Positions 1-40,449 of a DNA stretch of 46,397 nucleotides are shown piece by piece. The position numbers and the translations under genes were made by a program. The notes under the pieces are model-generated. The model made no database searches and was not told where the DNA came from. It saw nothing but the letters and a program-made list of their open reading frames with translations. This DNA is from a virus, in the IMG/VR virus record IMGVR_UViG_3300020470_000030, positions 1-46,397 of that record; one strand, given 5' to 3'. Each line of letters opens with the position of its first letter. Positions within the stretch are counted from its first letter, which is position 1.

Positions 1-211
1 ATCTTTCAAACTGTGGTTGTTCTAATACAGAGTAATAATCCAAATGATATAGTTCATCAGAGTTAGGATTAGCAAGATCAGGCATAAACTCTCTTGCTCC
101 ACCTTTACTCTTAATCTTATCAACTTCCTCCATAACATGTGCTTTCATTTGCTCATGAAATGGACATGGTATAATTGCTACTGGTTGTGGTAATATAGGA
201 ATTACATTCAT
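1..211 (-). CDS. Partial protein, possibly a 2OG-Fe(II) oxygenase (C-terminus beyond window)
   Basis: This is an open frame from an ATG at 211 to the window edge, about 70 codons with no stop. Its start overlaps the stop of the next upstream gene by the four bases ATGA, the usual translational coupling in this phage. The N-terminus (MNVIPILPQPVAIIPCPF) has the short strand-plus-proline pattern seen at the start of phage proteins of the TIGR02466 oxygenase type, and the neighbouring genes are oxygenases of that superfamily. No catalytic residues lie within the visible part, so the assignment is inferred from position and N-terminal style only. Confidence 0.5.
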   Translation of the reverse strand, partial: MNVIPILPQPVAIIPCPFHEQMKAHVMEEVDKIKSKGGAREFMPDLANPNSDELYHLDYYSVLEQPQFER

Positions 212-873
212 GGTATAGGATGATTTTGCCTTTCTTCAAAAGATTCATCACCATATTTACCATGATAATCACCTTTAACTTTTGCTAATCTCTGTTCATC
301 CATATACTCCATTGGGAAAGGTACAGTATTAAAACTAACAGTTACTCTATCACTTTCAGTGTTATTGAGTCTACTACCATGTTCTAACCATGATGGAAAG
401 ATATACAAATGATTCTCTTTAATAGGTACATCAAACTCATACTGAGTGTACTGAGTTTGTATTAAGTGCATCTCACACATTTTATATGGAGTTAATGGCG
501 AAATCATGTACAAGTTACCTACATCACCTTCAGGTAATTCTACATAGAATGCTCCACTTAAGGGCGAACCTTCATGTCTATGTCTATGTGTAAATCCGCC
601 AGGTGGTAATATATTGTACCAAGCACCACTTAACATACTGGGGAAATATCCAGTCTTATCTGAATAATCATCCAAACATTGTTGAAATGCAAATAACATT
701 GGATGTGCAATTTCATCTCTTAGTGGATCCCATCCACCATGAGAACTAACACCATTGACTGCTAATGAGTGTGGATTAGTTTTACCATTCTCTTTAATAT
801 GTTTCTTCCAAGTATCAAGATCTGGATGATTACTTAGATCATATTGTTCAATTAGTGTTGGAAATATGTCCAT
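208..873 (-). CDS. 2OG-Fe(II) oxygenase, TIGR02466-like
   Basis: A 221-residue protein with the double-stranded beta-helix signature of 2-oxoglutarate/Fe(II)-dependent oxygenases. A His-rich iron site motif (H96-R-H98-R-H100) is followed by the SGAFYVELPEGD strand, then FPSWLEH with H165 as the distal iron ligand, and R176 in the SDRVTVSFN strand, where 2OG is normally bound. Such enzymes hydroxylate protein side chains or small molecules using O2 and 2OG; the substrate here is unknown. It overlaps the genes on both sides by 1-4 nt and lies in the same transcription unit as the endonuclease gene. Family assignment is good; the biological role is not known. Confidence 0.85.
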   Translation of the reverse strand: MDIFPTLIEQYDLSNHPDLDTWKKHIKENGKTNPHSLAVNGVSSHGGWDPLRDEIAHPMLFAFQQCLDDYSDKTGYFPSMLSGAWYNILPPGGFTHRHRHEGSPLSGAFYVELPEGDVGNLYMISPLTPYKMCEMHLIQTQYTQYEFDVPIKENHLYIFPSWLEHGSRLNNTESDRVTVSFNTVPFPMEYMDEQRLAKVKGDYHGKYGDESFEERQNHPIP

Positions 874-1373
874 TACAAATACACTATGTTACATACAATT
901 CTTCGGTCAGCATCAGTACAAGATGAACCCGCATGTTTATACGTGCCTGGGAACTTTATCGCTCTGTTTGCTTTACTTTGTACCTTTTGTCCGTCCTCAA
1001 AGTATGTATAACCATCACAATCATTGAAATATATTATACATATCTTTACTTCTTCAGGTGTATCTCCATCAGGTGTAGTTACATCATAATGTAATGGTTT
1101 CTCTACTATATCTGTTGTCCTTGTTGTAGCATTGACTTTAATTCTATGCAACCCAAGTGGATTTACTCCTACCAATACTGGTCTTATTTCACTATAATGT
1201 GGTGACACTGGTTCACAATTAAGGTAGAAAGTATGTGACCATTGTGGACATCCATCATCTTCATATACTGTACCACTATTAAAGAACCATGGCATATTCT
1301 CACCAAGTAGAAACTTACTTACATTATTATAGAGATCTTGTGGTAAGAAATCATCATAAACTTCTACACTCAT
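873..1373 (-). CDS. 2OG-Fe(II) oxygenase-like protein
   Basis: A compact 166-residue protein with H95-Y-D97 as the HxD iron motif, a central IIYFND strand, H147 as the second histidine, and R157/R158 before the final CNIVYL strand. The order and spacing fit a minimal 2OG-Fe(II) oxygenase domain. The 159-residue protein at 37904-38383 has the same architecture with HxD at the same residue numbers (H95, D97), so the two look like paralogues about 36 kb apart. Its stop overlaps the start of the next gene (TAATG) and its start overlaps the end of the endonuclease gene by 4 nt. Substrate unknown. Confidence 0.75.
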   Translation of the reverse strand: MSVEVYDDFLPQDLYNNVSKFLLGENMPWFFNSGTVYEDDGCPQWSHTFYLNCEPVSPHYSEIRPVLVGVNPLGLHRIKVNATTRTTDIVEKPLHYDVTTPDGDTPEEVKICIIYFNDCDGYTYFEDGQKVQSKANRAIKFPGTYKHAGSSCTDADRRIVCNIVYL

Positions 1374-1900
1374 GGTAATACAACTAACCCATTCTTTGTG
1401 TTCTTATAGTATATAATAGGGTAGTCAATCGTCTCCTTCCCTGCTTCTATTGTTTTCTTATAAGTATGAGGTTTAATTGATACAAACTGTCCATCAACTA
1501 CACCATCAATTCCTTTACTTTCTTCATCTGGAGTTGCTAATCTATAATCACCAGTCTCAGATACCATCTCCAATATATCTAACTGAACTTGTAACCCTGC
1601 GAATGTCTTATCAATAACCAAATCCTTAGTCCAATCATATACATCATCACGATTAAGTTCATCCAAGTTCTTCTTAATCTTCAGAACATACTCCCATATC
1701 TTATCAGCAGCAACATCAATCTTATCAAGTCCTTGTTTCTCATCATAGAAGGACTGCCACCCATCCTGTGAAGGATTAGGTGTAGATTCTCTATACTCTT
1801 GGATGAGATCACTACACTGACCCATATTGCGAGGTCGTGTTGCTTGTGAAAAAGAGTTCGCTAAGTTGATGACAGAACCAATGTAAGGAAGTTTAGTCAT
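1370..1900 (-). CDS. MjaI-family (CTAG-type) restriction endonuclease
   Basis: A 176-residue protein that I recognise as resembling the RE_MjaI family (founder R.MjaI of Methanocaldococcus, specificity CTAG). Resemblance is along the whole length: an N-terminal INLANSFSQATRP block followed by a Gly-Gln and SDLIQE, a central DLVIDKTFAGLQ, and a C-terminal RLATPDEESKGIDG block followed by VSIKPHTYKK. The last block fits a PD-(D/E)xK-type active site (D132 with K143 in S-I-K). The ATG at 1900 is preferred because a longer frame from 1948 needs a TTG start and would overlap the upstream gene. No partner methyltransferase is visible in the window. I found no CTAG in the entire window, which matches the expected specificity. 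Specificity is inferred from family, not shown. Confidence 0.72.
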   Translation of the reverse strand: MTKLPYIGSVINLANSFSQATRPRNMGQCSDLIQEYRESTPNPSQDGWQSFYDEKQGLDKIDVAADKIWEYVLKIKKNLDELNRDDVYDWTKDLVIDKTFAGLQVQLDILEMVSETGDYRLATPDEESKGIDGVVDGQFVSIKPHTYKKTIEAGKETIDYPIIYYKNTKNGLVVLP

Positions 1901-1928
1901 TAGTAATCTTATTTCTCTTAGATTACCA

Positions 1929-2108
1929 CTAATGACTACGATTGTCAATCACTGCTTGTGCCTCTTTGTAAACTGTCGGAGGTTCTACAGTAGAATTATC
2001 TTGTTTTTCCTCGTTATCTCTGTACTTTTTGTATAGTCTATCAGGATTCTTTGATTGATCTATAACTAAATCATCAAGTTCCTTCACTATTTCCTTCATT
2101 GTTTTCAT
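1929..2108 (-). CDS. Small hypothetical protein
   Basis: A 59-residue protein if it starts at the ATG at 2108; a second in-frame ATG at 2099 is nearly as good. It overlaps the end of the upstream coiled-coil gene and ends 28 nt before the endonuclease ATG. It is charged, with a helical N-terminus (EIVKELDDLVIDQ) and a disordered-looking Glu/Pro-rich middle. No family recognised. Its position directly upstream suggests co-transcription with the endonuclease, so an accessory or control role is possible but not supported by sequence. Confidence 0.5.
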   Translation of the reverse strand: MKTMKEIVKELDDLVIDQSKNPDRLYKKYRDNEEKQDNSTVEPPTVYKEAQAVIDNRSH

Positions 2109-2256
2109 TTTCAAGTACCTGTAACATTTCAAGTGCGCCTTGTAGTTTAAGATATTCTTCTTTCTTCAAATCAAATGATTTTTGTAAGTCAACTAATTCT
2201 TGTTGTATTTGATTAGATCTCTGAATAAGTTGTTCCTTATGATTAATATCAGTCAT
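2074..2256 (-). CDS. Small coiled-coil protein
   Basis: A 60-residue protein that is almost entirely one amphipathic helix (heptad-like pattern through QRSNQIQQELVDLQKSFDLKK), so a short coiled coil is likely. It is the first gene of the minus-strand run that contains the endonuclease. A TATAAT-like element lies about 20 nt upstream of the start in the divergent intergenic region at 2257-2330. Function unknown. Confidence 0.55.
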   Translation of the reverse strand: MTDINHKEQLIQRSNQIQQELVDLQKSFDLKKEEYLKLQGALEMLQVLENENNEGNSEGT

Positions 2257-2296
2257 AGTATGGTGGAAGTTCTCTCTATTATACCATATTTAGATC

Positions 2297-2304
2297 AATA
2301 AATA
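2297..2304 (+). promoter_or_regulatory. T4-type late promoter-like motif for adhesin gene
   Basis: AATAAATA, one base off the T4 late consensus TATAAATA and matching the relaxed NATAAATA form reported for cyanophages. It sits 26 nt upstream of the plus-strand ATG at 2331. The divergent region 2257-2330 also carries TATAAT on the minus strand facing the small genes and the endonuclease, without a clear -35 element. Confidence 0.5.
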
Positions 2305-2330
2305 CATGTGAGGTATAGTATCTACCGTAC

Positions 2331-3926
2331 ATGACTGACACCAACCATAGTTCCATTGCTGAACAGCAAGAGAACGATATGGTGATGAATCCTGATCTTC
2401 AACAGGCATCATTACCCATTGAAAAGTGGACAATAGAGTCCGAAACTCTTACCTACAAAACATTAGCAACTGTTGGTGACTTTGAGTGCAGAGTATTCTA
2501 TCGCAAAGAAGAATATAACCCTGATAGGTCATTTAATGGAGAGAAACCTGTTATATTAGTATGTTCTACATCATGGTTAGATGATGACGATGAGAACAAA
2601 CTGCACAGGTACATGGTACAAACAAGGGCAGTATATGTTAATGTACTTGTAAGATCAACAGGTGTACTATCAAGTAATAGAGACGTTAGAGACGCAGTAA
2701 GATACTTATCAGGTGAAGTTAAGAAATACAATGGTGACAATGGTAAGATACAAGTTGTTGATATAAATGACAACGATAAAGTATATGAAATGTCATATGA
2801 TGACATCAATCTATCACTTGATGTAACATCAGATACTTCTAACCCTCAAACATTGGGTCAAATGTATCCAGTGGATAGTTATACATCTAATGATGTAGGT
2901 GGCGGATCTATTAGTCTATCATATAACTCTATTTTTCAGAATGGCACAATAGCAATGTCTGAACTGAATAATAAATTAGGTGGTGGACATAGAATCAGTG
3001 GATATTATAGAGGCGGTAGTGCTGTTGCTAATGTAGGAAATAACAATAGTATTCCTACCAGTGGTACTATTAAGTTCAGTGATTTCCGTGGTATGACTGA
3101 TACCGTAAATGGTCATTGTAACGGTAACTTTGGTCACTTAAAGACACGATGGGATATATTCGGTGACAGTACATGGACATCTAACCTAAACAAAATGGTT
3201 AAAATGTCTGGACATTGTGGTGTTACTGACCCTAACCAACCTGCAATAAGATTTAATAACTCAGGTGGTGGTAATATTATAGGACTTGAGATGGTCGCAT
3301 CAGGTAGAATATGGGGATATTCAGGACAACCAGGCGGACAAGGTGGACTAACATCAGGTGGTAATGGTGGTTATGCAATACACATGGCAGTTCCCACTAA
3401 AATTTCAGACGGAGACTGGAATGACCGCATCAAAGGCGGTGGTGGAGGCGGCGGAGGCGGCGGTACTGGCGGTCAAGGTGGCGGTGGTGGTCACGGCGGT
3501 ACTAAGAGATGTAATAGTCGTTTCTGTTGGTCAACTAAACGAGTATGTTATAACAATGGTGGCGCAGGCGGTGCCGGCGGTGCTGGTGGACAAGGAGGTC
3601 ATGGTCATGGATATCAATGGGACGGTTCAGTCTGGATAGATACCCACGGAGCAGGATGGGGTGGCGGTAACGCAGGTGCTGGTGGTGCTGCTGGTGGAAC
3701 CAACGCAGGTGCTGGCGGACAAGGAGGCACAGGTGGTGGCGGTGGAGGTCACCAAAATAATGGTGGAACAGGTGGAACAGGAAATAGAGGAGCAGACGGT
3801 GGATCAGACAACCGAGGTTGTGGATACCACTCCAATAGATCTGGTCAGGATGGAACAGGTGGACATGGTGGCGGTTCTGCCCCAGGCAAACACACTACCA
3901 GTCACAATGGTGGTAGATATTCTTAA
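2331..3926 (+). CDS. Glycine-rich adhesin / tail fibre tip-like protein
   Basis: A 531-residue protein read against its neighbours. Residues 1 to about 200 form a globular head. From about 200 to 260 comes an SGTIKFSDFRG-type module common in marine phage fibres. From about residue 320 to the end the chain is dominated by Gly, with runs of up to nine and repeated GGxGG, GGQGG and GGHGG blocks interrupted by loops containing Cys, Trp and Tyr. This resembles the polyglycine motifs of gp38-type receptor-binding adhesins of T2/S16-like phages, which stack as polyglycine II helices with exposed recognition loops. A receptor-binding role is therefore plausible. The cysteines in CNSRFCWSTKRVC could form disulfides or bind metal. 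The gene starts 26 nt after a late-promoter-like motif. Confidence 0.7.
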   Translation: MTDTNHSSIAEQQENDMVMNPDLQQASLPIEKWTIESETLTYKTLATVGDFECRVFYRKEEYNPDRSFNGEKPVILVCSTSWLDDDDENKLHRYMVQTRAVYVNVLVRSTGVLSSNRDVRDAVRYLSGEVKKYNGDNGKIQVVDINDNDKVYEMSYDDINLSLDVTSDTSNPQTLGQMYPVDSYTSNDVGGGSISLSYNSIFQNGTIAMSELNNKLGGGHRISGYYRGGSAVANVGNNNSIPTSGTIKFSDFRGMTDTVNGHCNGNFGHLKTRWDIFGDSTWTSNLNKMVKMSGHCGVTDPNQPAIRFNNSGGGNIIGLEMVASGRIWGYSGQPGGQGGLTSGGNGGYAIHMAVPTKISDGDWNDRIKGGGGGGGGGGTGGQGGGGGHGGTKRCNSRFCWSTKRVCYNNGGAGGAGGAGGQGGHGHGYQWDGSVWIDTHGAGWGGGNAGAGGAAGGTNAGAGGQGGTGGGGGGHQNNGGTGGTGNRGADGGSDNRGCGYHSNRSGQDGTGGHGGGSAPGKHTTSHNGGRYS

Positions 3927-5002
3927 TCTCTCTCGTTATTAGTAGGTTGAGCACCACCTCTTGGTCCTGAGAAACCATACTGTAACTCTGTTGTGGTTCC
4001 TTCTTTAGTACCCCATATAACTACATCACCAAATACTGAGTGAATACTTTCACATCCTTCCCATGATGCCATTTGATCCTTCCAAGATGAAGGCAACCAA
4101 GTGGTGGCAGTAGTTGTGTCTTCAATTATCTTTGTAACTGCTCTATTATGTGAGTTTAACTTCTCAGTATATCTTCCATAGTTATCCATTGGTTGAGTAC
4201 CAGTAGGAGCATAAGCATGAGTATCTGGTGCAATCTCATATCCTATAGTCTTACTCAATCCTTTATCACTAAACTCAAAATGTAGAGTAGTAATTGCATC
4301 AAAATCAGTAACAAATCTACCTGCTATAATATCAGCAACTGCTTTAGTATTTGTATATGCTTTGGAGTTACCATTACCACATGTTGCTTTAATTATATTC
4401 TTCATCTCTACATCATCTACTGGATCCCAGTTCTTCCAAAGGGATAGACCAATAGTTCTATTCTTCTTACTAATATTAACTGAGGAGAATCCCCAATCAT
4501 GTCTCTCTGTAAGAATATTATCACAAATCTCAAGTAAATTCTTTAATGCAGAAGTGTCAGCGTTACCAGTAACTTCACTTGCTAACTGACAAAACGCTGT
4601 TATACTTGCTGACAATAATGGTGGTTCATCAAGAAAGTGATATAACTCAGAGGTTGGAGTTGTAGGATCATCAGCATCAAACCAGAATGCTTTAGTATCC
4701 TCTAAGTATCTAAAAAGAGTATTAGTGTAGATAGTTCCATCAAATGTCTGAATCTGATTAATTTCAGTAGGTATCTTAAATAAGAACGCATATTCAGTGG
4801 GTACTGATTTACCATCACTACGATGTGTCTTATTAAAATATACACCAGAGTCCCTACGTTGACTGCCAGGTTGATCCCATCCTAATTCAAATAGTGATGG
4901 GTTAGCATCAACAATCTTCCTAATATTAGTGATATCAGTATCACTCAGGAGATCAGGATGTGTATTTACTTGTTTAGTTAAACTGTCAAAATCTACAGAC
5001 AT
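3923..5002 (-). CDS. Hypothetical protein of 359 residues
   Basis: The ATG at 5002 follows the upstream stop by one base and has a GGGA Shine-Dalgarno element about 6 nt before it, so it is preferred over an in-frame start at 5035. The protein is soluble-looking with no signal peptide or membrane segment, rich in Trp/Asp/Thr, with alternating strands and helices through its length. It sits between the adhesin and an oxygenase and overlaps the adhesin stop by 4 nt tail to tail. I do not recognise a family. It could be the substrate or partner of the adjacent oxygenases, but nothing in the sequence shows this. Confidence 0.75.
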   Translation of the reverse strand: MSVDFDSLTKQVNTHPDLLSDTDITNIRKIVDANPSLFELGWDQPGSQRRDSGVYFNKTHRSDGKSVPTEYAFLFKIPTEINQIQTFDGTIYTNTLFRYLEDTKAFWFDADDPTTPTSELYHFLDEPPLLSASITAFCQLASEVTGNADTSALKNLLEICDNILTERHDWGFSSVNISKKNRTIGLSLWKNWDPVDDVEMKNIIKATCGNGNSKAYTNTKAVADIIAGRFVTDFDAITTLHFEFSDKGLSKTIGYEIAPDTHAYAPTGTQPMDNYGRYTEKLNSHNRAVTKIIEDTTTATTWLPSSWKDQMASWEGCESIHSVFGDVVIWGTKEGTTTELQYGFSGPRGGAQPTNNERD

Positions 5003-5003
5003 T

Positions 5004-5570
5004 TTATTCCCAGTTGTTTCCTTTTTGATACCCAAACCATACGATAACGGAGTATCTTACTCCCTTAGTGACAGGTTTTACTTCATGTGGATATAACATA
5101 TTGCTTGGATAAACATGCATTGAGTTAGCATGTTTAGGCATATCTGTATTACCCCAGAAGCAAACTTCCCCTCCTTCATAGTCATCATTAATATTAAATG
5201 ATGCAGTTATTGATGCAGCATCAGCATCACAATCAGTATGAATAGAGAGATGTCCACCTACATCATATTTACATAACCAGTATCCTGAGTATTTATCATA
5301 TAAAGGAGAATCTGGTGGATTTATCTCAGAATAATCAGTATATATCTTGGGCATTGTCTTCAACATACCCTTATGAATTAGATAATATATCTCATCATCT
5401 TGTTCTAATAATATCTCTCCTCTTTCACCAGTTAATTTATAATATGCCTCATTATTTCTATCATCTTGATCTCCAGTAGGAAACTGTGTGTTATTACATA
5501 ACTCCAACAGTCTACTATGGTCATGTTCACTTAATATATTATCATAAGTGAATATGTAATCATTAAGCAT
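5004..5570 (-). CDS. 2OG-Fe(II) oxygenase, prolyl-4-hydroxylase-like
   Basis: A 188-residue protein with the P4Hc layout: YDVGGHLSIHTD supplies H111 and D113, EGGEVCFWG is the strand between, H162 in the PHEVKPV motif is the distal iron ligand, and R172 in GVRYSVIVWFG is the 2OG anchor. PHEVxPVxxGxRYS is characteristic of phage and bacterial prolyl-4-hydroxylase-type enzymes. The ATG at 5570 overlaps the upstream gene by 8 nt; an earlier in-frame start at 5621 would add a tail overlapping that gene more deeply. Likely acts on a protein substrate; identity unknown. Confidence 0.88.
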   Translation of the reverse strand: MLNDYIFTYDNILSEHDHSRLLELCNNTQFPTGDQDDRNNEAYYKLTGERGEILLEQDDEIYYLIHKGMLKTMPKIYTDYSEINPPDSPLYDKYSGYWLCKYDVGGHLSIHTDCDADAASITASFNINDDYEGGEVCFWGNTDMPKHANSMHVYPSNMLYPHEVKPVTKGVRYSVIVWFGYQKGNNWE

Positions 5571-6354
5571 TAGGTCCGCCACTTCCACCAATAAAATAGT
5601 CCCAATGTATAAAACCAGCAAGACAAACTCTTGGAAAATCTTTATACATGCCTGGTTTAATTATGGCAGTATGCCATAAGTATGAAGGATATAATACTAA
5701 TCTATTAAACTTCATATCTATATGATGATACTCTTCATATACTGGTTCAATATTCTTAGTATCTAATTCTACTAAATCATTTCTTTTTTCTCTGTGGAAA
5801 TCATATAACCATTCCTTGTAATTCCAATACTGTTCTGATCTCCTAAATGTCTTATCTACATGTTCCATATTGGTCTCACCAGTATGTTCATGATTAAAGA
5901 ATGAAGTACCACCATGACAATCCTGTGGTGCATTTAAGTATAGAACATAAGCAAACATAGCAGGATCAATATGTGGTTGCACACTAATCCTTTCAGTCTG
6001 AACATCACTAAACATGACATTCAACTGATTAGATATATTTAAATTATCAGGATCATTTATTTCAAAGTCAGTATATTCATTAACAAAATGAGAGACCATT
6101 CTGCGAAACTCAAGCATCTCAAATCCAATAGTGGATGAGAAGCCTGGGAATACTACATCTTGGTCTTTAGGTTTATTTCTTTCTAATGGTTGTTTCTGTA
6201 CAACATTCTTCCAAAATCCTTCTGGATTAGCAAGAACATTATCAACAACTACAATGGGATGATTCTCATTCGGTCCTATTCTATACCCATCATAGTATAA
6301 ATCTTCCGATATCTTCAGATCATCCTGATTAACATAATTCAGTAATTCACTCAT
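5563..6354 (-). CDS. 2OG-Fe(II) oxygenase-like protein, DUF6445 type
   Basis: A 263-residue protein. The N-terminal part contains HPIVVVDNVLANPEGFWKN, typical of the DUF6445 group. The iron motif is H128-I-D130, followed by AYVLYLNAP and GGTSFFNH. The second His is H228 in LWHTA, and R242 precedes CLAGFIHWD. An AGG-type ribosome site lies upstream of the ATG at 6354, which is favoured over 6417 because the latter would overlap the upstream gene by 41 nt. It is larger than the minimal oxygenases nearby because of a long insertion (about 155-210) after the first metal motif. Substrate unknown. Confidence 0.78.
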   Translation of the reverse strand: MSELLNYVNQDDLKISEDLYYDGYRIGPNENHPIVVVDNVLANPEGFWKNVVQKQPLERNKPKDQDVVFPGFSSTIGFEMLEFRRMVSHFVNEYTDFEINDPDNLNISNQLNVMFSDVQTERISVQPHIDPAMFAYVLYLNAPQDCHGGTSFFNHEHTGETNMEHVDKTFRRSEQYWNYKEWLYDFHREKRNDLVELDTKNIEPVYEEYHHIDMKFNRLVLYPSYLWHTAIIKPGMYKDFPRVCLAGFIHWDYFIGGSGGPNA

Positions 6355-6376
6355 AATAATGCCTAACTCATAGTAT

Positions 6377-6598
6377 TTAGTCTGGGTGGTCAACCTCTGT
6401 AAAGGTATACTCTGCAATCATAGAGAACATTTTATTCCTAACATGTTCAAGGTATTGTCTCTCTTTACCATCAATAGTTTCCTCAGATAACTGAAGATAC
6501 TTCTCTAACATCTTATACATGGTTCTGGTTTCCCAGATACCCATGCGTGCTTCACAATACCATTCACCTTCTTGAAATTCCCTCTGATTATAGGACAT
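6377..6598 (-). CDS. Small hypothetical protein
   Basis: A 73-residue, mostly helical and acidic protein (EWYCEARMGIWETRTMYKML then an amphipathic helix). Its start shares TAATG with the stop of the giant tail-fibre gene, so it is translationally coupled to it. No family recognised. A small partner or trimerisation chaperone for the fibre would fit the position, but that is inference from context alone. Confidence 0.6.
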   Translation of the reverse strand: MSYNQREFQEGEWYCEARMGIWETRTMYKMLEKYLQLSEETIDGKERQYLEHVRNKMFSMIAEYTFTEVDHPD

Positions 6599-9500
6599 TA
6601 ACCTACCTTTAATCTATCTTGTTTTGTTTTCTTTAGATCATCAATCTCGCTCTTAAGTTCCTTGATAGACTCAATAAGTAGTGGAACTAACTTCTCATAC
6701 TGTACTGTTAGGTAGTCACCATTACCAGGCGCAGATTTAACTGCCTCAGGTAATACTTCCTGTACTGCTTGTGCAGATACACCAGCATTTCTTCCATCAT
6801 AGTTACCCTCTTTAGGTAATACTTCATCCTTAGCAAGTTGATTCCAACTGTAAGTAAATCCATCCAACTTACATACTTTAGCGACTGCATTATCAATCTG
6901 TTCAATACTTGTCTTGAGTCTAATATCAGACGCATATGCCTGAATGTCACCAGCACACTGTAGTGTACCACCAGAGTATTTGAGGTTAGATGTATTAGTT
7001 GTACTGTTAGTACCACTGTTATAAAGGATTGCACCACCGCCAGTTCCAGATACGGAAGAAGCAAGAGATGATGTACCAGAGTTACCATTAATACTACCAC
7101 TAATAGTATTACTTACCGATAGTCCCTGAACTGATAGTGTAGTTCCATTGAACGATAAGTTACTACTTGTAGTTGTATTATTTGTGGAATTGTTATAAAG
7201 AACTCTACCACCTGTACCCTCAACATGTTTTGCGAGAGTGGCGTTACTTGCGGTTCCTGTAATACCACTTGTGGCATTAATAGATCCAACTGTTAATGAA
7301 CCAGATACATCTGCGTTACCATTAACATCAAGAACTGTTCCAGTACCACCAATAGTTGCACCAGAGTCACAGTTGAGTGATCCACCAACGAATCCATTTG
7401 CAGTAATAACATTACCCTTAAATGAACCTGCAGCGGTTCTTGCAACAATACTTGCAGAGGACTGGTCATTTGCCTCAGCGTTCATTCCATCAAGTAAGTC
7501 AGCGTTCAGGTTAGCAACCTTAGTAGAAGACGATACAATGAATGGAGATACATTACTACCAGCAGATGCAGTAGACTTGAATCTATAAGACTCAACCATA
7601 CCAGTTGCACCAGCATCAATGGTCATAGACCTGTTACTACCAGCAGATAGTGCAGTAACAACACCAACATCAGCAAGAAGGATTGGAGTTGCAACACCCT
7701 TACCACCAGATGCCATGTTGATCCTCTCCATTGTCATGGCGTAACCAGTCAATGAAGTAACAACACCAGAGTTAACATTAACTCTAATCTCAGGTTGTCC
7801 GTTACCTGAAGCACCTCTACCACCGATATACTCACCAACCAATGATGTAACAACACCAGAGTTGATGTACATATCAGGACCGTAAAGGTCATCAGTAAAG
7901 TGCAAGTCAGTTGCGGTAACAGCAGCACCAGATATATTAGTAGACCAGATATTTGTACTGGTTACGTTAGTAACAACACCAGCAAGTGAATATAACTGAG
8001 GTGTAATAATATGGTTAGATGCTGATATCTGAGTTGCAATACCAGTGTAAACATTACTGGTTCCTACCCACTGAACACCAACATGTGACAGAGTTGTAAC
8101 ACCTACATCACTATAGTTTCTTGTAATAGATGCATCAGTTGCCTTGAAGTCTGTAACTATACCGTTAGTGGCATATAGATTCTTGTAAACTGATAGTGTA
8201 TCAATACCTGCATTAATACCTTCTAACTTATTAAAGGTAATAGAACCAACACCACAATTAAGATCTCCAACATTAAGTTGTCCATTAAATGTACTGATTC
8301 CTGCCCATGTGGAGTGCCATGAAGACTCTGCCTTAATATGTGCAGCAGGTTTGAAGGATACATAAGTACCAACAACTTCCATGTTGTTGAGTCTTGCAGT
8401 ACCACCTTCATCTACTATGGTGTAGTAACCGTATGTTTCCCAAGGAATACCCTGTTGAGATACACCACCAGATGTGTTATATCCCCAGAAGTTAGCAACC
8501 TTCTTAACAACCAATGTGTCATAAGACACACCAGCGAATGACTGGTTACTTGAGAATGTAACAATACCAGATACAAATAGGTCTTTAACCTTAACAACAC
8601 CATTAACTTCCAGTGAATCCTTGAAGTTAAATACACCAACATTAGACTGACCAATACCAATCTGATCAACTTTAATGAAGTTTCTATCTTTTTCCTGAGA
8701 AACTACACCAAATCGTCTCCACTCACCAGCAGCAAATATGTGTCCTAAGTAACCACCAGCATCAGGAATACCAGCAAATGAGATGTCACCACCTCTCTTA
8801 GTTCCTGTAGGAGTAGAAATACCAACTGTTAATAGTTTACCCTGTGGTGCATCACCACGGATATACATATTGATTGCTTCAATACCTTCTTCACTGTTAC
8901 TTGTTAGTTTCTCAGTAAAGTTAACAGGTCCGTAGAACTGTGATGTTCTATTGTTATTATCTCCACCCTCAACTGTGAGTGATTCTCTAACAAGAACTTC
9001 ATCAAATACACCAGATACTCTCTTAGTAGATTCTGCCTCTGCATCATCTCCAGTATAGGAGAATACAGGTGCCTCAATGACTTCTTCCTCACCAGTAATA
9101 GAAGATAATCTCTTATATCCAGTGTAGAAGTCACCAGAGTCATTCATACCAGTGTAAACAACAGTACCACCGTCTAACTCTTTCTTCTGAGCAGAAAGTG
9201 TTTCTGTATCTGATAGAACTCTATCTTGTTTCTGTGGTAATGAGGTTGAATAGTTACCTGAACCATATCCAAGATATTCAAATGTATGACCAGATGCACG
9301 AAGAATAGATGGTCTACGAAGTTCCATTGGTAGAACTTCTATCTTCTTAATGGTAGTACCAGTAATAGCAGAAAGAGATGATGTACCAAACTGACCACGA
9401 AGGATCTTGTTGATATTATCATTAACAAATCTAACAATCTCACCATTAATCATACAGTAGTCACCACGCATGAATCCTTCAGTGGATGTCAACGTAATGG

Positions 9501-13666: not shown

Positions 13667-14386
13667 TTAGATATATAATAGTTGCGTCATCCTTGAAAAA
13701 TCAGGATATGAGCCTGGATATAGTTCGTCTTGATGTAATACTTGGGTCTGAAATAATATAGCACGATTATACATCATAGGAAATGCGTGTTCAGACTTCC
13801 ATGCAAATGAACTCCTTATACTCATCTCCATATTCTTTACATCTTTCTCGGTTTGATACTGAGCAAAGTTAGGTCTTGGTATAGTCATCTCACCTAAGAA
13901 ACTGTATAGATCAGTACCACCACCAGACATTTTAATCTCTTCCTTGGTATTCAAATACACTGTAAGTAGGAATTGATAAGGTCGAGGAGCAAATGGATAA
14001 CTATCCTGATATGGTACAAGTCCCCAAGGTTTATCAACTAACATACTACCAAGAGTATAATTAAAGATACATCCTTTATTCTTCCATCCTTCTTCTATAT
14101 CTTCTTTATTAACAGGTACACCCCATAGATTCTCATCATATACAAACTGATCGAATAGTGGTTTTAATTGAAATGTTAACTCCTTAGAAGGAACTGCAAA
14201 TCTCTTACCCACGCCAGGTTGTCCTGTTGGTATAGTTTCTGCTTTTAATTCATTCTCACGACCAAACCTTCTTACCTTCTCTGGATCTTTGTAGAAATTG
14301 TCAATAATTAGTGCAGATATATTCTTACTGGGTCCGATCTCTGTGACCGCAGTAATTTCCATCTTGTCTTGATCAAGTTCAAACAT
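13667..14386 (-). CDS. DUF6445-like oxygenase-fold protein, first iron His replaced
   Basis: A 239-residue protein. NISALIIDNFYKDPEKVRRF near the start is the DUF6445 hallmark shared with the protein at 5563-6354. Where an HxD iron motif is expected there is Y126-Q-D128 in VPYQDSYPFAP, so the first histidine is absent. H218 in VLHQDELYPG and R232 remain at the expected downstream positions. The strands QFLLTVYLN and GGGTDLYSF correspond to the conserved core. It may be a catalytically altered or non-enzymatic member. It overlaps the upstream small gene by 8 nt. Confidence 0.7.
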   Translation of the reverse strand: MFELDQDKMEITAVTEIGPSKNISALIIDNFYKDPEKVRRFGRENELKAETIPTGQPGVGKRFAVPSKELTFQLKPLFDQFVYDENLWGVPVNKEDIEEGWKNKGCIFNYTLGSMLVDKPWGLVPYQDSYPFAPRPYQFLLTVYLNTKEEIKMSGGGTDLYSFLGEMTIPRPNFAQYQTEKDVKNMEMSIRSSFAWKSEHAFPMMYNRAILFQTQVLHQDELYPGSYPDFSRMTQLLYI

Positions 14387-14555
14387 CGTTAACTAATGAT
14401 TCCACTTTAGTTTTCACATTTTCCATACATGTTGTCACATCCTTATGGGATCCTGTTATTTGATAGGAGTCTTTACCATCAGGTGAATATCTTCTTGTAA
14501 ATAGTGACCATCTCCACTCATCCATGTCAGCGGAGTACCAGATGTGAACACGCAT
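14379..14555 (-). CDS. Small hypothetical protein
   Basis: A 58-residue protein if it starts at the ATG at 14555; an in-frame GTG at 14591 would run into the 3' end of the tmRNA and is less likely. It contains a Trp/Tyr-rich beta-strand pattern (RVHIWYSADMDEWRWSLFTR) and a helical C-terminus. A TATAAATG element lies just upstream (14564-14571), perhaps too close to drive this exact start. No family recognised. Confidence 0.5.
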   Translation of the reverse strand: MRVHIWYSADMDEWRWSLFTRRYSPDGKDSYQITGSHKDVTTCMENVKTKVESLVNDV

Positions 14556-14563
14556 TTGCTTTA

Positions 14564-14571
14564 CATTTATA
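14564..14571 (-). promoter_or_regulatory. Late promoter-like TATAAATG
   Basis: TATAAATG on the minus strand, one base from the T4 late consensus TATAAATA, between the end of the tmRNA and the small gene at 14555. It could drive the small gene and the DUF6445-like gene, although it lies only 8 nt before the ATG chosen for the former. Confidence 0.35.
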
Positions 14572-14591
14572 TAGGGGCATTTCACCCCCAC

Positions 14592-14879
14592 GGATCAGTT
14601 GGGTAACAAGGTTGATCTAAACCCCGATCTCACCTTAGGCAGGAACCATTTCGGTTCTGCGTGAGAATTCTCTCGACATGATGCGAGAGAACGCTACGAT
14701 GTTATTCGCAGCAGTGTCAGATGGTTTTGCATCTGTGGTTTGCTCATCCGAGCAGGTTTCAGTCATGTTCCTTGTACCCTGTCGAAACCTTGGCACCCCC
14801 TTGCAAAGGTGGAGGTGAGGGGAGTCGAACCCCTGTCCAGAATATAGGTGACACCACCTACATGCCTTTTAAAGTCATG
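14592..14879 (-). ncRNA. ssrA: Circularly permuted (two-piece type) tmRNA
   Basis: Transfer-messenger RNA that rescues stalled ribosomes by adding a degradation tag. The acceptor piece comes first: a T-arm AGGGG-TTCGACT-CCCCT at 14818-14836 (minus), then CACCTCC (14811-14817) and ACC. A short spacer follows, then the coding piece starting GGGGGTG (14794-14800), which pairs with CACCTCC to form the acceptor stem, followed by the tmRNA hallmark GGTTTCGAC. This 3'-before-5' order is the permuted form of marine picocyanobacteria. The tag frame runs 14709 to 14635: it begins ANNIVAFSR, as cyanobacterial tags do, is 24 residues long, and ends RTEMVPA then TAA. A hairpin with loop GAAAT (helix 5-like) precedes the stop. 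Outer ends are approximate; the gene fills the gap between two proteins. Confidence 0.88.
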
Positions 14880-15422
14880 CTAAGGACTGAGATATACATT
14901 ACCAGCAATTGTACTACCTTTTCCACCACTCAGGACAAAATGTTCAACAAATGATGGAAAAATTATTATATCACCAGTATGTAGTTCGGGTCTCCAATCC
15001 AGACCAAAAAACTCTGGATTGGATGCGAAGAGGTGTCCGTAAACCTCCATCTGTGATTCTACACGATATCTGTAAGGATTCAAGAAAACCGTGCGAGATA
15101 TGTCCACATCCTCATAAACGATAAAACTCCACTGAGAACCACAGTGTTGATGTGGGTCTTGGAAGTCGGCATCACTAACATAAGTATTCCTCCATATATC
15201 ATCTATCCTTGCGGCAGAGTATGGGATACCTAATGTATCAATATTCTTAGAAATAACTTGTGATAAGTGGTTGATCGTACCTTCACTTACTGTCCTTGGA
15301 CATCCAAAACTTGAATAGATACCAGATCTAAAGTTAGGTTTCTGTTCTTCTTCAACAATACTTATCTGTTTGAGGTCTACCTTATCAGTAAAAAATGGAA
15401 TAGCAAAGAAACTATGCTTCAT
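14880..15422 (-). CDS. 2OG-Fe(II) oxygenase-like protein (paralogue of 15805-16365)
   Basis: A 180-residue protein with ARIDDIWRNTYV, then H91-Q-H93 followed by SQWSFIVYED, an RPELHTGDIIIFPSF strand, and H161 in FPSFVEH. This is the TIGR02466-type jelly-roll order: iron ligands on the H-x-H strand and in FPSxxxH. The final strand reads TIAGNVYLSP with no Arg where 2OG is usually anchored, a change shared with its paralogue, so co-substrate binding may differ. The ATG at 15422 overlaps the upstream 49-codon gene by 11 nt. Its stop abuts the tmRNA. Confidence 0.8.
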   Translation of the reverse strand: MKHSFFAIPFFTDKVDLKQISIVEEEQKPNFRSGIYSSFGCPRTVSEGTINHLSQVISKNIDTLGIPYSAARIDDIWRNTYVSDADFQDPHQHCGSQWSFIVYEDVDISRTVFLNPYRYRVESQMEVYGHLFASNPEFFGLDWRPELHTGDIIIFPSFVEHFVLSGGKGSTIAGNVYLSP

Positions 15423-15561
15423 CCTTTTTAACTGGTTTCTCATTCAATACTGGTTTACCAGTCTGTTTAGCAATAAAGGCAGCAAGTTCTGGAGTTTCTT
15501 CCCATTCCCAAATGGTCTTACGTCCCTTCTTATCTACTTGTTCCCAAGTTCTTTTAACCAT
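15412..15561 (-). CDS. Small Trp/Lys-rich protein
   Basis: A 49-residue open frame from the ATG at 15561, overlapping its upstream neighbour by 8 nt and its downstream neighbour by 11 nt, which fits the coupled arrangement of the region. The protein starts MVKRTWEQVDKKGRKTIWEW and continues with a helix ELAAFIAKQTG and a basic tail. Function not recognised. Its clean fit between two genes is the main support. Confidence 0.6.
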   Translation of the reverse strand: MVKRTWEQVDKKGRKTIWEWEETPELAAFIAKQTGKPVLNEKPVKKDEA

Positions 15562-15802
15562 TGTCTCGCTCCCTGTAGAGTTCATTAAGTCCCTGTTTCA
15601 ACGTATCTATCTCATTCAATGCCATATCATACTTACCTTCAAGTTGTTTAACTCTATGGTGCATGTCAGCAATTGCTTGTCCAAAGACTTCTATATTATT
15701 GAGTAGATATGAGTTACCAGACTGTTCTGATGTACCTATAGAGTCTATCGCATCTATGTTATCTTGTAAATGCTTTGGTAAATCTTCTTTATTAAGTGCC
15801 AT
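15554..15802 (-). CDS. Small coiled-coil protein
   Basis: An 82-residue protein. The C-terminal half (from about residue 37, VFGQAIADMHHRVKQLEGKY, to LNELYRERD) has a clear heptad pattern predicting a coiled coil. The N-terminal half is acidic and polar. It starts 2 nt after the stop of the upstream oxygenase. A structural linker or assembly-factor role would suit its location among tail genes, but no family is recognised. Confidence 0.65.
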   Translation of the reverse strand: MALNKEDLPKHLQDNIDAIDSIGTSEQSGNSYLLNNIEVFGQAIADMHHRVKQLEGKYDMALNEIDTLKQGLNELYRERDNG

Positions 15803-15804
15803 AA

Positions 15805-16365
15805 TTATTCAATGAATTGATCGTCTGGGTGTTGGTGGTACTTCATGTATATATTACCAGAAATTGTAGTACCTTCATTTCCGGCATTAACCTGATGCAT
15901 TATAAATGATGGGAATATAATTATATGGCCTGGTGGTAGTTCAGGTTTATAATCTAAGGGAAAATCACCCAAACCACTTGAGATTTGATTCTGAATCAAT
16001 CCCATATTGGGGTTTATAAATGAAGTCTTAGAAGTTACACTCTCATATACAATGAAACTCCACTGAGAATGTGGATGCAAATGTACATCTTGATAATGAT
16101 GTTTTTGATATCTATTTCTCCATACATGACCTACCTTTGCATCATGACCAAGTAATCCTGCAGGACCTAAGTTCCTTTGAATTACTAACTCAAGTTCATT
16201 CCATGCTTCATCAGGTAACATTAACTGTGTACTGAAAGTAGATGGAACACCAGCATCCCATGTAGGTTCAAGTTCTGATGGATCCTCTTCTGGAATATTA
16301 AATCTATCCAGATCTATTTCATCCTCAAATATAGGAATACCAAAAATATACTTACGGTTCATCAC
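15805..16365 (-). CDS. 2OG-Fe(II) oxygenase-like protein (paralogue of 14880-15422)
   Basis: A 186-residue protein that aligns over its length with the protein at 14880-15422: xFxIPxFxDxIDL at the N-terminus, GHVWRNRY, then H95-L-H97-P-H99 with SQWSFIVYES, PELPPGHIIIFPSF, and H157 in FPSFIMH. The last strand reads TTISGNIYMKY, again lacking the expected Arg. The pair probably arose by local duplication, with the coiled-coil gene, the 49-codon gene and possibly the tmRNA between or beside the copies. Substrate unknown. Confidence 0.8.
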   Translation of the reverse strand: MMNRKYIFGIPIFEDEIDLDRFNIPEEDPSELEPTWDAGVPSTFSTQLMLPDEAWNELELVIQRNLGPAGLLGHDAKVGHVWRNRYQKHHYQDVHLHPHSQWSFIVYESVTSKTSFINPNMGLIQNQISSGLGDFPLDYKPELPPGHIIIFPSFIMHQVNAGNEGTTISGNIYMKYHQHPDDQFIE

Positions 16366-16397
16366 TCATTCCCCAATCCCATAATGCTTTCAAAAAT

Positions 16398-17102
16398 TCA
16401 AGTATCCTTTTCATTTGGTGGTAATGGCACTTTCCTCATAAATTTATAAACTAACGTCGCTCTAAGACCACGATAGGTTTCATTAGGAGGATTACCATGA
16501 TGAGGTATATTTCCTTTAAAGAAACATACTCTGCCAGGTTTAGGAGGTACTTCTATCCACTCATCATTGAGTAAAATCTTTGTACTTCCACCCCAGTCAT
16601 CATACCATGTTTTGTTGACATAGTAAACAAAACTTAATCCGTTATCACACGGACAGTCTTGATGTGGAAATGTATGGTGAATCCACTGTTGTCCATTCAC
16701 TAAGATCTCACCTATCTCCATATCAAAATCAATACTGTTTATCACAGCATCCATTATCATTTTGAAACATCCATCATTAGAATGAGGAGATTTGCCAGGA
16801 AAAATTTGTTGTTTTAATGCAGCAACCTCTTTCCATTCTGGATCTGCACCTATATCATGTCCATCTGTTGGATAATTACTGGTATGTCCATAGAACCACC
16901 CGTAACTATTCATGATTAGATCATCAACATAATGTATGAAATAATCAGGAAATAGATTATCAATCACAAAGACTTGATCCTCAGCAAGATTATACTGAGA
17001 GAAATCGAGTTCTTGAGTATGGAGATCAATGTAATTCATTTTCACTAATACCGAAGGATTCGATGCATTAATTTCTGTAGAAGAATGTAGTCTTGATACC
17101 AT
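16398..17102 (-). CDS. 2OG-Fe(II) oxygenase, prolyl-hydroxylase-like
   Basis: A 234-residue protein with FPHQD (H147, D149) as the iron motif, NGLSFVYYVN, WGGSTKI, PGRVCFFKGNIPHHG with H201/H202 as the distal ligand, and R214 in RGLRATLVYKF as the 2OG anchor. This is a complete catalytic set. The ATG at 17102 shares TAATG with the stop of the 543-residue structural gene, so it is probably translated from the same late mRNA; an internal ATG at 17039 is possible. The tight coupling to a virion gene suggests that it may modify a tail protein, which is inference. Confidence 0.85.
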   Translation of the reverse strand: MVSRLHSSTEINASNPSVLVKMNYIDLHTQELDFSQYNLAEDQVFVIDNLFPDYFIHYVDDLIMNSYGWFYGHTSNYPTDGHDIGADPEWKEVAALKQQIFPGKSPHSNDGCFKMIMDAVINSIDFDMEIGEILVNGQQWIHHTFPHQDCPCDNGLSFVYYVNKTWYDDWGGSTKILLNDEWIEVPPKPGRVCFFKGNIPHHGNPPNETYRGLRATLVYKFMRKVPLPPNEKDT

Positions 17103-19686: not shown

Positions 19687-20270
19687 TATAAGAAATCTCC
19701 AAACTTATCCAACCATTTAAATATCTTACCAAGGAAATTACCTTGGAACATATCTGATTGAGTTCCTGCTTCTACGCCCACTCCACCTGTCAATTCTATA
19801 AAGTTAGCACCTAAAGTTAAATCTTTAGTTGCAAGGACATTAATATTAGTACCACGAATGTTAGTAATAGATCCAGTGATATAGACATGTTTGTTACTGT
19901 CTAATGTTATCTCAGAATCTGCATCCCATGCTTCAAGTCTTATGTTTCTACCCTTTAGTATTACGTCACCATCTTTGGCATCCAACATAATATGACCATT
20001 TGATGCTGAAATTATCTTAGCATAATCCTTTTCATCAAGATCATTACCACAAGTCTCATAAGAAGTTCCATTTACTACTAAACGATGTAATCCATCATCA
20101 TAGAATCCAATTCCTTGTCTGTTATCAGTATAAAGTGAAAGATCTACTACCTTACCTTTCAAGGCACCTTTCTGTACTTTATTACCAGAAGTTATTCTAA
20201 AGCCAGGGTAATTTGCGTAATACTCTTTGGTATCTACCTGTTGTACGTCTTCGGGAAGTTTATCTGCCAT
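19686..20270 (-). CDS. Beta-helical baseplate spike-like protein (gp5 C-terminus-like)
   Basis: A 194-residue protein. From about residue 85 to 170 it shows short repeating strands (GHIMLDAKDGDVILKGRNI, SEITLDSNKHVYIT, LATKDLTLGANFIEL) typical of the triple-stranded beta-helix that forms the T4 gp5 membrane-piercing spike and related spike tips. It starts 1 nt after the stop of the gp5-like OB-fold gene, so in this phage the spike appears as a separate polypeptide. The hydrophobic C-terminus (GKIFKWLDKFGDFL) is unusual for a spike end. Role inferred from repeat pattern and position. Confidence 0.65.
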   Translation of the reverse strand: MADKLPEDVQQVDTKEYYANYPGFRITSGNKVQKGALKGKVVDLSLYTDNRQGIGFYDDGLHRLVVNGTSYETCGNDLDEKDYAKIISASNGHIMLDAKDGDVILKGRNIRLEAWDADSEITLDSNKHVYITGSITNIRGTNINVLATKDLTLGANFIELTGGVGVEAGTQSDMFQGNFLGKIFKWLDKFGDFL

Positions 20271-20271
20271 G

Positions 20272-22851
20272 TTACTCCCTCGTTAATGGTTTACCAACAC
20301 AATCAATAACATCGACAACCAATGGTCTACCATCGGCTCCCGTGATTGGGTTTCCATCAGAATCAACACGATCTGGTCTTTCTCCAATATCTTGAACAAA
20401 GTCTGGACTGTAAGATATTACTGGAATTAACTCCGCTCCTATTCCTGTATTAGTCAAGATATTAACTGTTGGTTTTACCTTATGTTTATCCTTACATATA
20501 ATATTCTTGATACCAACAATAGATCCAGCAGCAGTAAGTACCAATTCAAAGGAACACTGTCCTACCTGACCAATATCTCCTGATGTATAACCTATTCCAG
20601 GCTTATGAGGTATAAGAGTCGTTACTATACCTACTGGTTCACTACCAATACCTGCAACACCTCTTGTAGTAAAGTTATAAGTATCAGTCTTTGCAATACC
20701 AGTAAAGGATTGACCAGCATAATCTCTAAGAGATCCTTCAGTCATTTTAACATAATACTCTGTATTATGTTTTAAGTCAAGATTTGGATCTACCTTTATA
20801 ATTCTATCAGACAAGAAAGTAACTCTCTTATCACCTACAGGAATCATCTCATGAGTCTGATTAGTTGCAGATTCAATAATAGTAATATCACCTGCTCCCT
20901 TAATAACAGGTTCACTGAATGTCATTGATATTGATACAGATGTCTGAACACCAACTGCATTATCAGCGGGAGTAGTAAATGTAATGAATGGAGGAGGATC
21001 GTCTCCTTCATGATCAGGACCTTCAGTAACAGGATACTTAGGAGGAACTACACCAGTTGTTGGACAATAACCACTACCACCATTAATCATATATGTCTGA
21101 GTTATCTCTCCTTTATCATTGATGACAGCTCTGGCAAATGCACCACCACCATGATTAGTCTTATCAATAATACTAATTCTTGGAGGAACCTCATACCCAT
21201 AGCCAGGTTGAATTACAACCAGAGTAAGAATACTACCATCTATAGACGATATTATAGGTAATAACTGTGCTGGTTTGACATTCTCTCCAAATACTTCTAC
21301 CTTTGGAGGAATACACTTACCATAAACAAATCCATCTGGAATACTATTTGATAAATCGTCTTGAGTTTGTGGATTATTTGTCTTCTCATTACAATCAAAC
21401 CATTGACTGAAATCTCCACCCATCATACTCAAGAATGAAAGACTTCCATCTCCAGCAGCATAATCTAAATCATCTAATATCTGTATATTATCAAGTACAG
21501 ACTTCATACTACCAGCATTCTTGGTAGATAATCCCATTCCTTGTGACCAATCATCATAATCCTTACACTGTAGAGAATCACAAGACAAGAAACTCATAAT
21601 CATATTCATGTAAGAACTAATCTTCATGAATAAACCACTAACATTATTAAGCATACCCGTCAACCAATCTAATCCGTCCAGAATTGGTTTAAGAGCAGAA
21701 GTTATTGCATCAAATAATTTTCCTAAGATTGCAGCGACTGCCTGTTCAATAGCACAAACAGTTGCATTAATTGTATTACCAATCAAATCCTTAAGCAACC
21801 CCTTAATAAATCCCAAAATATCAAAACCAGCCTTCTCGAAGAGACAGAAAATCAAATCCATGATTCTCTTGAAGGCCTGGATGATAGGAGATTTTTGTGG
21901 TTCAGGTACAATTAATCCAACAAGATTTCTGAATATCTTACCAAGAAACTTCATTACCTTATCACGAATCATACGAATGATCTGTTTAATTGCACCCAGT
22001 ATCATTCGAGAAACCTTATTAATCAGTTTCTTAATATCAGCAACCATATTCCTTGCTGCATCAATATAGGCTTCACCAAATTGTGTAAGGGAATTAACGG
22101 TCTTAACGAAACTACCTATAGCATGTGTAATCTTAGAAATTGCATCATTCTCACACACATTAGGTCCAGTATGAGGTCCATGATCATTTGGTCCATCAGT
22201 CGTTCCTCCATCGGATGCAGTATGTCTCCGCAATCCTTCCTTACTCATATCACCATCTAACGTTCCATGCTTCGCTGCTTCATTACCTGTAGGTGTTCCT
22301 GAATCATTACGTGCGCTCTGAGGAGGATGAACTCTATCTGTTACTGATGTTCCTCCTTTTGCTGGTGGTAGTGTTGTTGGGCCATCTCCTCCAGCATCTC
22401 TTCCTGATCTGGTGGCAAATGCATTAGCCTCTATACCTTTTGATGAATCTCGAAGATTCAATACATTAGTAGGTGCATTGGAAGGACCATGTTCACTTAC
22501 GGTCCTTGCTAATGCACCAAAAACAACTGGCTGTTGTCCTTCCTCTCCATCCATGAAGAAACCGAAGACTGTTTCTCCACCAACCATTCTGGTACTCTCG
22601 CCAAAACATGATTGACCAGAACCAGAGGTTGCATCTACCATGACATGAGCCCAAGGTAGATCTTTATCTTCAAGCATTGATTCATCAAAAGGATGATAAC
22701 CAATGATCCTTACTTTACAACGATAAGCCCAACCTGCCTCTAAATCAGATGCTGCCTGTTTCCAATATTTTGCAGGAGCAACTTTACCGATCCACCAAAC
22801 GAATCCGTCTCGGCCTAAAAAATTGGTCTTAAGTAAGGAATTATCAATCAT
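20272..22851 (-). CDS. Baseplate hub protein, gp5-like OB fold without lysozyme
   Basis: An 859-residue protein. The first ~115 residues match the T4 gp5 OB-fold domain: FVWWIGKVAPAK, YRCKVRIIGYHPFDE, LPWAHVMVDATSGSG, VFGFFMDGEEGQQPVVFGAL. No lysozyme signature follows. Instead there is a Gly/Thr/Asp/His-rich linker (about 120-230), a long helical region with amphipathic stretches and several cysteines (about 235-440), and a beta-rich part ending in an Ig-like Big_5 domain (TFTTPADNAVGVQTSVSISM through about residue 740). The protein sits between the gp27-like hub gene and the beta-helix gene, the T4 order around gp5. A distinctly enlarged hub protein. Confidence 0.82.
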   Translation of the reverse strand: MIDNSLLKTNFLGRDGFVWWIGKVAPAKYWKQAASDLEAGWAYRCKVRIIGYHPFDESMLEDKDLPWAHVMVDATSGSGQSCFGESTRMVGGETVFGFFMDGEEGQQPVVFGALARTVSEHGPSNAPTNVLNLRDSSKGIEANAFATRSGRDAGGDGPTTLPPAKGGTSVTDRVHPPQSARNDSGTPTGNEAAKHGTLDGDMSKEGLRRHTASDGGTTDGPNDHGPHTGPNVCENDAISKITHAIGSFVKTVNSLTQFGEAYIDAARNMVADIKKLINKVSRMILGAIKQIIRMIRDKVMKFLGKIFRNLVGLIVPEPQKSPIIQAFKRIMDLIFCLFEKAGFDILGFIKGLLKDLIGNTINATVCAIEQAVAAILGKLFDAITSALKPILDGLDWLTGMLNNVSGLFMKISSYMNMIMSFLSCDSLQCKDYDDWSQGMGLSTKNAGSMKSVLDNIQILDDLDYAAGDGSLSFLSMMGGDFSQWFDCNEKTNNPQTQDDLSNSIPDGFVYGKCIPPKVEVFGENVKPAQLLPIISSIDGSILTLVVIQPGYGYEVPPRISIIDKTNHGGGAFARAVINDKGEITQTYMINGGSGYCPTTGVVPPKYPVTEGPDHEGDDPPPFITFTTPADNAVGVQTSVSISMTFSEPVIKGAGDITIIESATNQTHEMIPVGDKRVTFLSDRIIKVDPNLDLKHNTEYYVKMTEGSLRDYAGQSFTGIAKTDTYNFTTRGVAGIGSEPVGIVTTLIPHKPGIGYTSGDIGQVGQCSFELVLTAAGSIVGIKNIICKDKHKVKPTVNILTNTGIGAELIPVISYSPDFVQDIGERPDRVDSDGNPITGADGRPLVVDVIDCVGKPLTRE

Positions 22852-34863: not shown

Positions 34864-35148
34864 TTAGCGTCTTTTTATCCATCTTGGAAGGTAGAATATT
34901 CCGAAGGAAAGACCCCAAAAAATAGCTAACATTATTATATGGAATATTCTATTAGAGTTTACAATTAAACCACAGGTTACGAATGATATCCATAACCAGT
35001 CTATAGTACCATGAAGTCTGTACCAGATGTTATCACCAAATCTTTTGATAAAACCATCTCGTTTTTTTGCGAACCACGGTGATACATGGCGCATCATAAC
35101 AAAACCCTCATTAAAAAACATGAGAGTGAAACCAATCCAAAAAATCAT
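34864..35148 (-). CDS. Small membrane protein
   Basis: A 94-residue protein with hydrophobic segments at about 1-18 (MIFWIGFTLMFFNEGFVMM) and 51-85 (two adjoining spans, LWISFVTCGLIVN and FHIIMLAIFWGLSFGIFYL), a basic loop between them and a basic C-terminus. It overlaps gp33 by 4 nt. Two or three membrane spans are likely. No family recognised. Confidence 0.65.
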   Translation of the reverse strand: MIFWIGFTLMFFNEGFVMMRHVSPWFAKKRDGFIKRFGDNIWYRLHGTIDWLWISFVTCGLIVNSNRIFHIIMLAIFWGLSFGIFYLPRWIKRR

Positions 35149-35399
35149 ATCGGTAGTTTAGATCTTGTAGTTCTTTTCAGATAATTTAATTCTGTAGCTT
35201 CTGCTTTAAGTTTCTCTTTAAGTGGTTTAGAAATTAACTTTCCAACAGATTCAAACTCAATGTTATTATCTTCACAATAACTTATAATTGCTTCAATATA
35301 ATTAAGCTCAGACTGTCCTACAAGAATTTCAATATCACTTGTAAACTTATTCTGACAAAGAAATTTCTCTTTGAGTAGTTCGTTAACGTCTTTCTCCAT
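35145..35399 (-). CDS. 33: Late transcription co-activator gp33
   Basis: An 84-residue protein from the ATG at 35399 (a longer frame from 35480 lies inside the exonuclease gene). The pattern NYIEAIISYCEDNNIEFESV then GKLISKPLKEKLK matches gp33-type late promoter accessory proteins, which bridge the sliding clamp and host RNA polymerase for late transcription. Its presence fits the TATAAATA-type elements in the window. It overlaps the exonuclease by 17 nt and the membrane protein by 4 nt. Confidence 0.8.
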   Translation of the reverse strand: MEKDVNELLKEKFLCQNKFTSDIEILVGQSELNYIEAIISYCEDNNIEFESVGKLISKPLKEKLKAEATELNYLKRTTRSKLPI

Positions 35400-36818: not shown

Positions 36819-36819
36819 A

Positions 36820-37083
36820 TTAAGTGATACCTCGGTTTGCAAGTCGTCCCTGTATACCAGCAGACTTTTCAGATTTCTTTAATATTGAATTCCACGATGG
36901 GTGTTTATTGTGGAGTTTATCTCTCCACTCTCCAACTTCTCCTACGCCAGGACATGTGCTTGGATCGGAAAAGTCACGAGTCCATTCAGGATTGTCAGCT
37001 TTCCACTGATCCCAATCATGAACACTCATCACTACCTCTTTAGTCTCTCCAGTTTCTGTATTAATAACAGGGTACGTTGCCAT
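36820..37083 (-). CDS. Conserved small protein (FmdB-like N-terminus)
   Basis: An 87-residue protein whose ATG at 37083 shares TAATG with the ThyX stop. It starts MATYPVINTETGETKEVVMS, the beginning of phage proteins related to FmdB zinc ribbons, but it has only one cysteine, so it cannot form the usual ribbon. A Trp-rich middle (VHDWDQWKADNPEWTRDF) and a CPGVGEVGEW segment follow. Common in cyanophages beside thyX and phoH; function unknown. Confidence 0.7.
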   Translation of the reverse strand: MATYPVINTETGETKEVVMSVHDWDQWKADNPEWTRDFSDPSTCPGVGEVGEWRDKLHNKHPSWNSILKKSEKSAGIQGRLANRGIT

Positions 37084-37733: not shown

Positions 37734-37736
37734 AAG

Positions 37737-37901: not shown

Positions 37902-37903
37902 TA

Positions 37904-39893: not shown

Positions 39894-39913
39894 CTTTCTA
39901 CCTCCACGGTTAG

Positions 39914-40063: not shown

Positions 40064-40064
40064 A

Positions 40065-40298: not shown

Positions 40299-40449
40299 AC
40301 TTTTATCCTCTACTTGACTAATGACCTCTACATCTTCCCATTGGTGTCTAAAAACTATAAGACCAGTTAAAGTCTCTTCGCTTATACAGACAGTAAAATA
40401 TTCGTCAAGGAGACACAGTATTCTCCCTTGAGTATATGATCCGTCATTA

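Follow-up and report, generated by a model that had tools for sequence, protein, structure and literature searches.

We found that a virus of marine cyanobacteria carries a predicted CTAG-specific restriction endonuclease of the RE_MjaI family without a visible methyltransferase (MTase) partner and that its own DNA, in the 46,397-bp IMG/VR fragment analyzed here (the window), is devoid of CTAG, although about 106 copies would be expected. The same situation was encountered in the complete isolate Synechococcus phage S-SM2 and in a third lineage. These data most likely reflect an active solitary CTAG endonuclease that cuts host and/or competitor DNA, self being distinguished from non-self by the absence of sites instead of by methylation, although cleavage at CTAG and the target are inferred.

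We first verified the gene itself. The open reading frame (ORF) at 1370-1900 on the minus strand starts with an ATG at 1900, ends with a TGA at 1372-1370, and encodes 176 aa. A longer TTG start would give 192 aa, but all relatives align from the ATG. Pfam assigned the protein to RE_MjaI (PF09568) with 157.7 bits (cut-off, 22.7; E 3e-46) over profile positions 3-164 of 164, PADLOC classified it as REase_II (E 4e-44), and PHROGs has it only as an unknown family, phrog_14722. No other domain scored above its cut-off, arguing against a homing endonuclease of the HNH, GIY-YIG, or LAGLIDADG type. A six-frame search of the record detected this gene and no second one, and among 14 control genomes only Methanocaldococcus jannaschii gave a signal. 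The presumed active site, ESKGIDG...VSIK, is encoded at 1472-1522 (minus strand), and residues E127, G130, D132, G133, and K143 were invariant in 50 phage, bacterial, and archaeal sequences, their catalytic role being inferred. An AlphaFold2 model built with 50 sequences reached a pLDDT of 94.6 and a pTM of 0.69. Foldseek found no significant match to this model, the top PDB hit being a restriction endonuclease-DNA complex (3ndh, E 0.81), while a viral Holliday junction resolvase reached a probability of 0.89, and a PDB sequence search gave nothing significant. This agrees with, but does not prove, a PD-(D/E)xK fold. The sequence-only reading, which had proposed a cyanophage MjaI-type endonuclease lacking a visible methyltransferase, was supported, but it had not considered CTAG content, which turned out to be the strongest evidence.

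We then looked at the genomic surroundings. The endonuclease gene starts 28 bases after a small ORF of unknown function (1929-2132, minus strand), next to a second small ORF (2074-2256), and its stop overlaps the start (ATGA) of a 2OG-oxygenase-like gene (873-1373, minus strand), itself followed by a 2OG-Fe(II) oxygenase gene (208-873, minus strand; PF13759, E 1.2e-19). The assignment of 873-1373 is weak (PF13640, E 0.0065, below the cut-off), and PHROGs labels its product "DNA endonuclease V" (phrog_274, E 9e-45), a label that may be wrong. Many 2OG-Fe(II)-oxygenase-like genes surround the tail-fibre genes (208-6417, 13667-17102, and 37904-38383), at least four being supported by Pfam (208-873, 5004-5621, 873-1373 weakly, and DUF6445 at 5563-6417). 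Comparison with G018, a 55-kb syntenic sister phage, showed that the endonuclease and the 873-1373 gene form an inserted cassette (874-1928). In G018, the homologue of ORF 1929-2132 (44% identical), which is the left border of the cassette, is followed after about 10 bp by the homologue of ORF 208-873 (80% identical), which is the right border, with neither gene in between. A promoter scan around the cassette gave fewer sites than shuffled sequences and was uninformative.

We next addressed the question of the partner gene (METHYLTRANSFERASE). In isolates S-RIM32, S-H9-2, and S-CAM3, the orthologue (58 to 60% identical) is followed, with overlapping stop and start, by a 251-aa PF01555 DNA methylase, and most of 41 IMG/VR loci are paired in this way, the endonucleases of these phage-borne pairs being 58 to 88% identical to that of the window. 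In cells, 66 of 80 relatives (37 to 47% identity; Bacteroidota, Desulfobacterota, archaea, and many candidate phyla, but no cyanobacterium) have an MTase of this type within the flanks examined, indicating that the paired state is normal. The MjaI type II restriction-modification system of M. jannaschii also has an MTase, M.MjaI, which is listed as a homologue of CTAG 4mC MTases (PMC5867850). In contrast, no such MTase was found next to the endonuclease in the window, in G001/L002 (a contig and its locus, with a 98% identical endonuclease), in S-SM2, or in IMG/VR loci L011, L228 to L231, and L252. G007/L012, whose 1.7-kb overlap with the window is 99% identical, shows only the end of the gene but also has none. 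The window contains neither PF01555 nor PF02086. Since it represents about a quarter of a typical genome and separated restriction-modification genes are known in bacteria (PMC3488263), an MTase in the unseen part of this phage cannot be excluded. However, we consider such a split system unlikely, since complete S-SM2 (190,789 bp) has no relative of the cognate MTase, no PF01555, and no PF02086. In addition, an MTase would be pointless in a genome with no CTAG, and relatives that have one keep CTAG. The S-SM2 gene (SSM2_066, 75% identical) is annotated "restriction enzyme type II R/M system 1" and lies at another genomic site, next to uvsW, in a phage of another genus (Nilusvirus).

We then determined the CTAG content. 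The window holds no CTAG, while 105.6 are expected from its trinucleotides. Shuffling synonymous codons within 36 ORFs gave 86.2 ± 7.4 CTAG, with a minimum of 64 in 300 shuffles. CTAG was the only 4-mer with an O/E below 0.1 in the window and in S-SM2, the latter having 0 of 290 expected sites over its whole genome. No site was found in G007 (0/23) or in L066, which is 99.3% identical to window 35084-45104 (0/22). The third lineage, G008 (the L252 contig), had 0/29 in 32 kb, but here AGCT (0/53), GGCC (0/42), and CCAGG (0/20) were absent too, for unknown reasons. This contig also carries, just after the DNA polymerase gene, a 156-aa nuclease-like orphan ORF (L252, 13026-13496; SwaI-like, E 0.022), seen in only two near-identical contigs and in no phage record.

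In order to verify that CTAG loss is linked to the gene, we analyzed cyanophages without it. Six isolates lacking PF09568 in their whole genomes (S-SM1, S-ShM2, Syn9, S-PM2, P-SSM2, and S-SSM7), sampled over 60 kb each, had O/E values of 0.97, 1.03, 1.02, 0.79, 0.91, and 0.88, respectively. Among loci of 8 kb or more without a visible gene, 48 around transaldolase (median of the whole set, 0.91; minimum, 0.58) and 40 around uvsW (median, 0.81; minimum, 0.47) included none with zero CTAG, although some of these loci are near-duplicates and a gene outside the stretch examined cannot be excluded. The best-matched control, G018, had 124 of 154 expected CTAG, and in 30.6 kb of aligned columns it had 65 while the window had 0, the sites being mostly replaced by one-base variants. 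Counting lineages, 3 of 3 solitary ones against 0 of 94 controls had zero CTAG (Fisher p 7e-6), a figure that is approximate since the controls are not fully independent.

These controls also bear on the possibility that the hosts carry a CTAG restriction system, that the phages purged CTAG to escape it, and that the phage enzyme is incidental. Site avoidance against host restriction is common in phages (Rusinov et al. 2018, PMC6286503), and other palindromes are missing without a known phage enzyme: CCGG is absent or nearly so in S-RIM32 (0/98), S-H9-2 (0/95), S-CAM3 (1/158), and the IMG/VR record G011 (0/31), where GGCC is strongly depleted as well. No RE_HpaII (PF09561) match was found that would account for this, and host restriction or another phage enzyme could be the cause. 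However, CTAG loss tracks the presence of the gene in three lineages, while phages without it have normal CTAG, including G018 and two contigs from the same metagenome as G001 (L088, 51/56; L142, 59/58). Moreover, an endonuclease alone gives no protection from host restriction. Host evasion thus appears unlikely, although host CTAG content was not available.

Relatives harboring both gene and MTase had reduced but non-zero CTAG in the larger records, with O/E values of 0.07 (S-RIM32), 0.08 (G011), 0.14 (S-H9-2), 0.19 (S-CAM3 and G010), 0.40 (G009), and 0.84 (G012), compared to about 0.5 to 1.2 without the gene and 0 with the gene alone. This graded effect fits selection by the phage's own enzyme even when methylation is present, followed by loss of the MTase once few or no sites remained, although this order of events is inferred. 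Another cyanophage restriction-modification pair, an annotated R.RsaI endonuclease beside a DNA methylase, is found in Synechococcus phage ACG-2014j (NC_062735.1, 50393-51175).

Some solitary contigs did, however, contain a few sites. G001 has 9 CTAG, all within 19853-22618 of the contig, inside the large tail-fibre-like gene, where identity to the window falls from 95 to 98% to 74 to 86% with sharp borders, while the rest of the contig has 0/93. A recent import or an assembly chimera both fit. The short contigs L228 and L230 (7.7 to 8.0 kb) have 2 CTAG each. Both sites of L230 lie in a region (4483-6969) with a PDDEXK_11-like ORF (E 0.0046), a 467-aa unknown ORF, and a Dam-like MTase (PF05869), possibly another phage restriction-modification module. 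A few sites may therefore be tolerated, or these genomes hold another protection.

We then investigated the evolution of the gene. A maximum-likelihood tree of 39 endonucleases separated phage from cell sequences (100/100). The solitary label needed 3 changes, and well-supported branches forced 3. The window/L002 pair was nested among paired relatives (98/94), and S-SM2 represents a separate MTase loss, but L252 sits on a long branch and its place is unsure, so that we infer at least two and probably three losses. The dN/dS in solitary lineages was 0.06 to 0.11, with 0.058 for window-L002, 0.075 for S-SM2-L230, and 0.096 for L228-L011, in the range of paired relatives (0.05 to 0.08), showing that the gene is kept under strong constraint without its MTase. 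The exceptions above could suggest that the enzyme is inactive or has another specificity or role, CTAG loss being a relic of a former pair. We consider this very unlikely, since the invariant residues are intact, dN/dS is as low as in paired relatives, and relaxed selection would let CTAG return by mutation, yet 190 kb of S-SM2 has none.

Taken together, these data support CTAG as the specificity, indicate that the enzyme is active, and show how the phage tolerates it. Most likely, the protein is made during infection and cuts CTAG in any DNA in the cell except that of the phage, from which selection has removed every site. It probably arose from a phage-borne CTAG restriction-modification pair in which imperfect methylation selected against CTAG until the MTase was dispensable. 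The targets would be the host chromosome (nucleotide supply, shutdown) and/or the DNA of co-infecting phages, the two roles already offered by the sequence-only reading, and the sequence does not choose between them. A use against host DNA would recall EndoII/EndoIV of T4, but there was no sequence match to those families, and in our case the phage's own DNA would be spared by the absence of sites. A precedent exists in PacI of Pseudomonas alcaligenes, a solitary enzyme whose bacterial host was reported to lack its sites (PMC3488263), whereas here hundreds of 4-bp sites had to be lost. Solitary REases were previously counted in phages (12 in 831 genomes), and for solitary REases in general, partners in trans or lack of expression were suggested (PMC4176335). 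We found no description, in the open-access literature searched, of CTAG loss tied to a phage MjaI enzyme. More tentatively, some lytic cyanophages could repeatedly have evolved, through a restriction-modification pair, site depletion, and MTase loss, the ability to deploy an unpaired restriction enzyme as a weapon against host DNA and co-infecting phages after deleting a short word from the whole genome, and this may extend to other words (AGCT, GGCC, and CCGG) and other phage enzymes.

Restriction enzymes without their methylase are expected to be lethal or dead. Here is a naturally repeated case, including a cultured phage, in which a 4-bp site has been purged from a 190-kb genome, so that methylation is replaced by sequence avoidance. 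One missing palindrome also gives a computable signature for the specificity and activity of such enzymes. If the target is rival phage DNA, a typical cyanomyovirus without the enzyme, with about 2.3 to 2.6 CTAG per kb in the samples analyzed here, would be cut at several hundred places.
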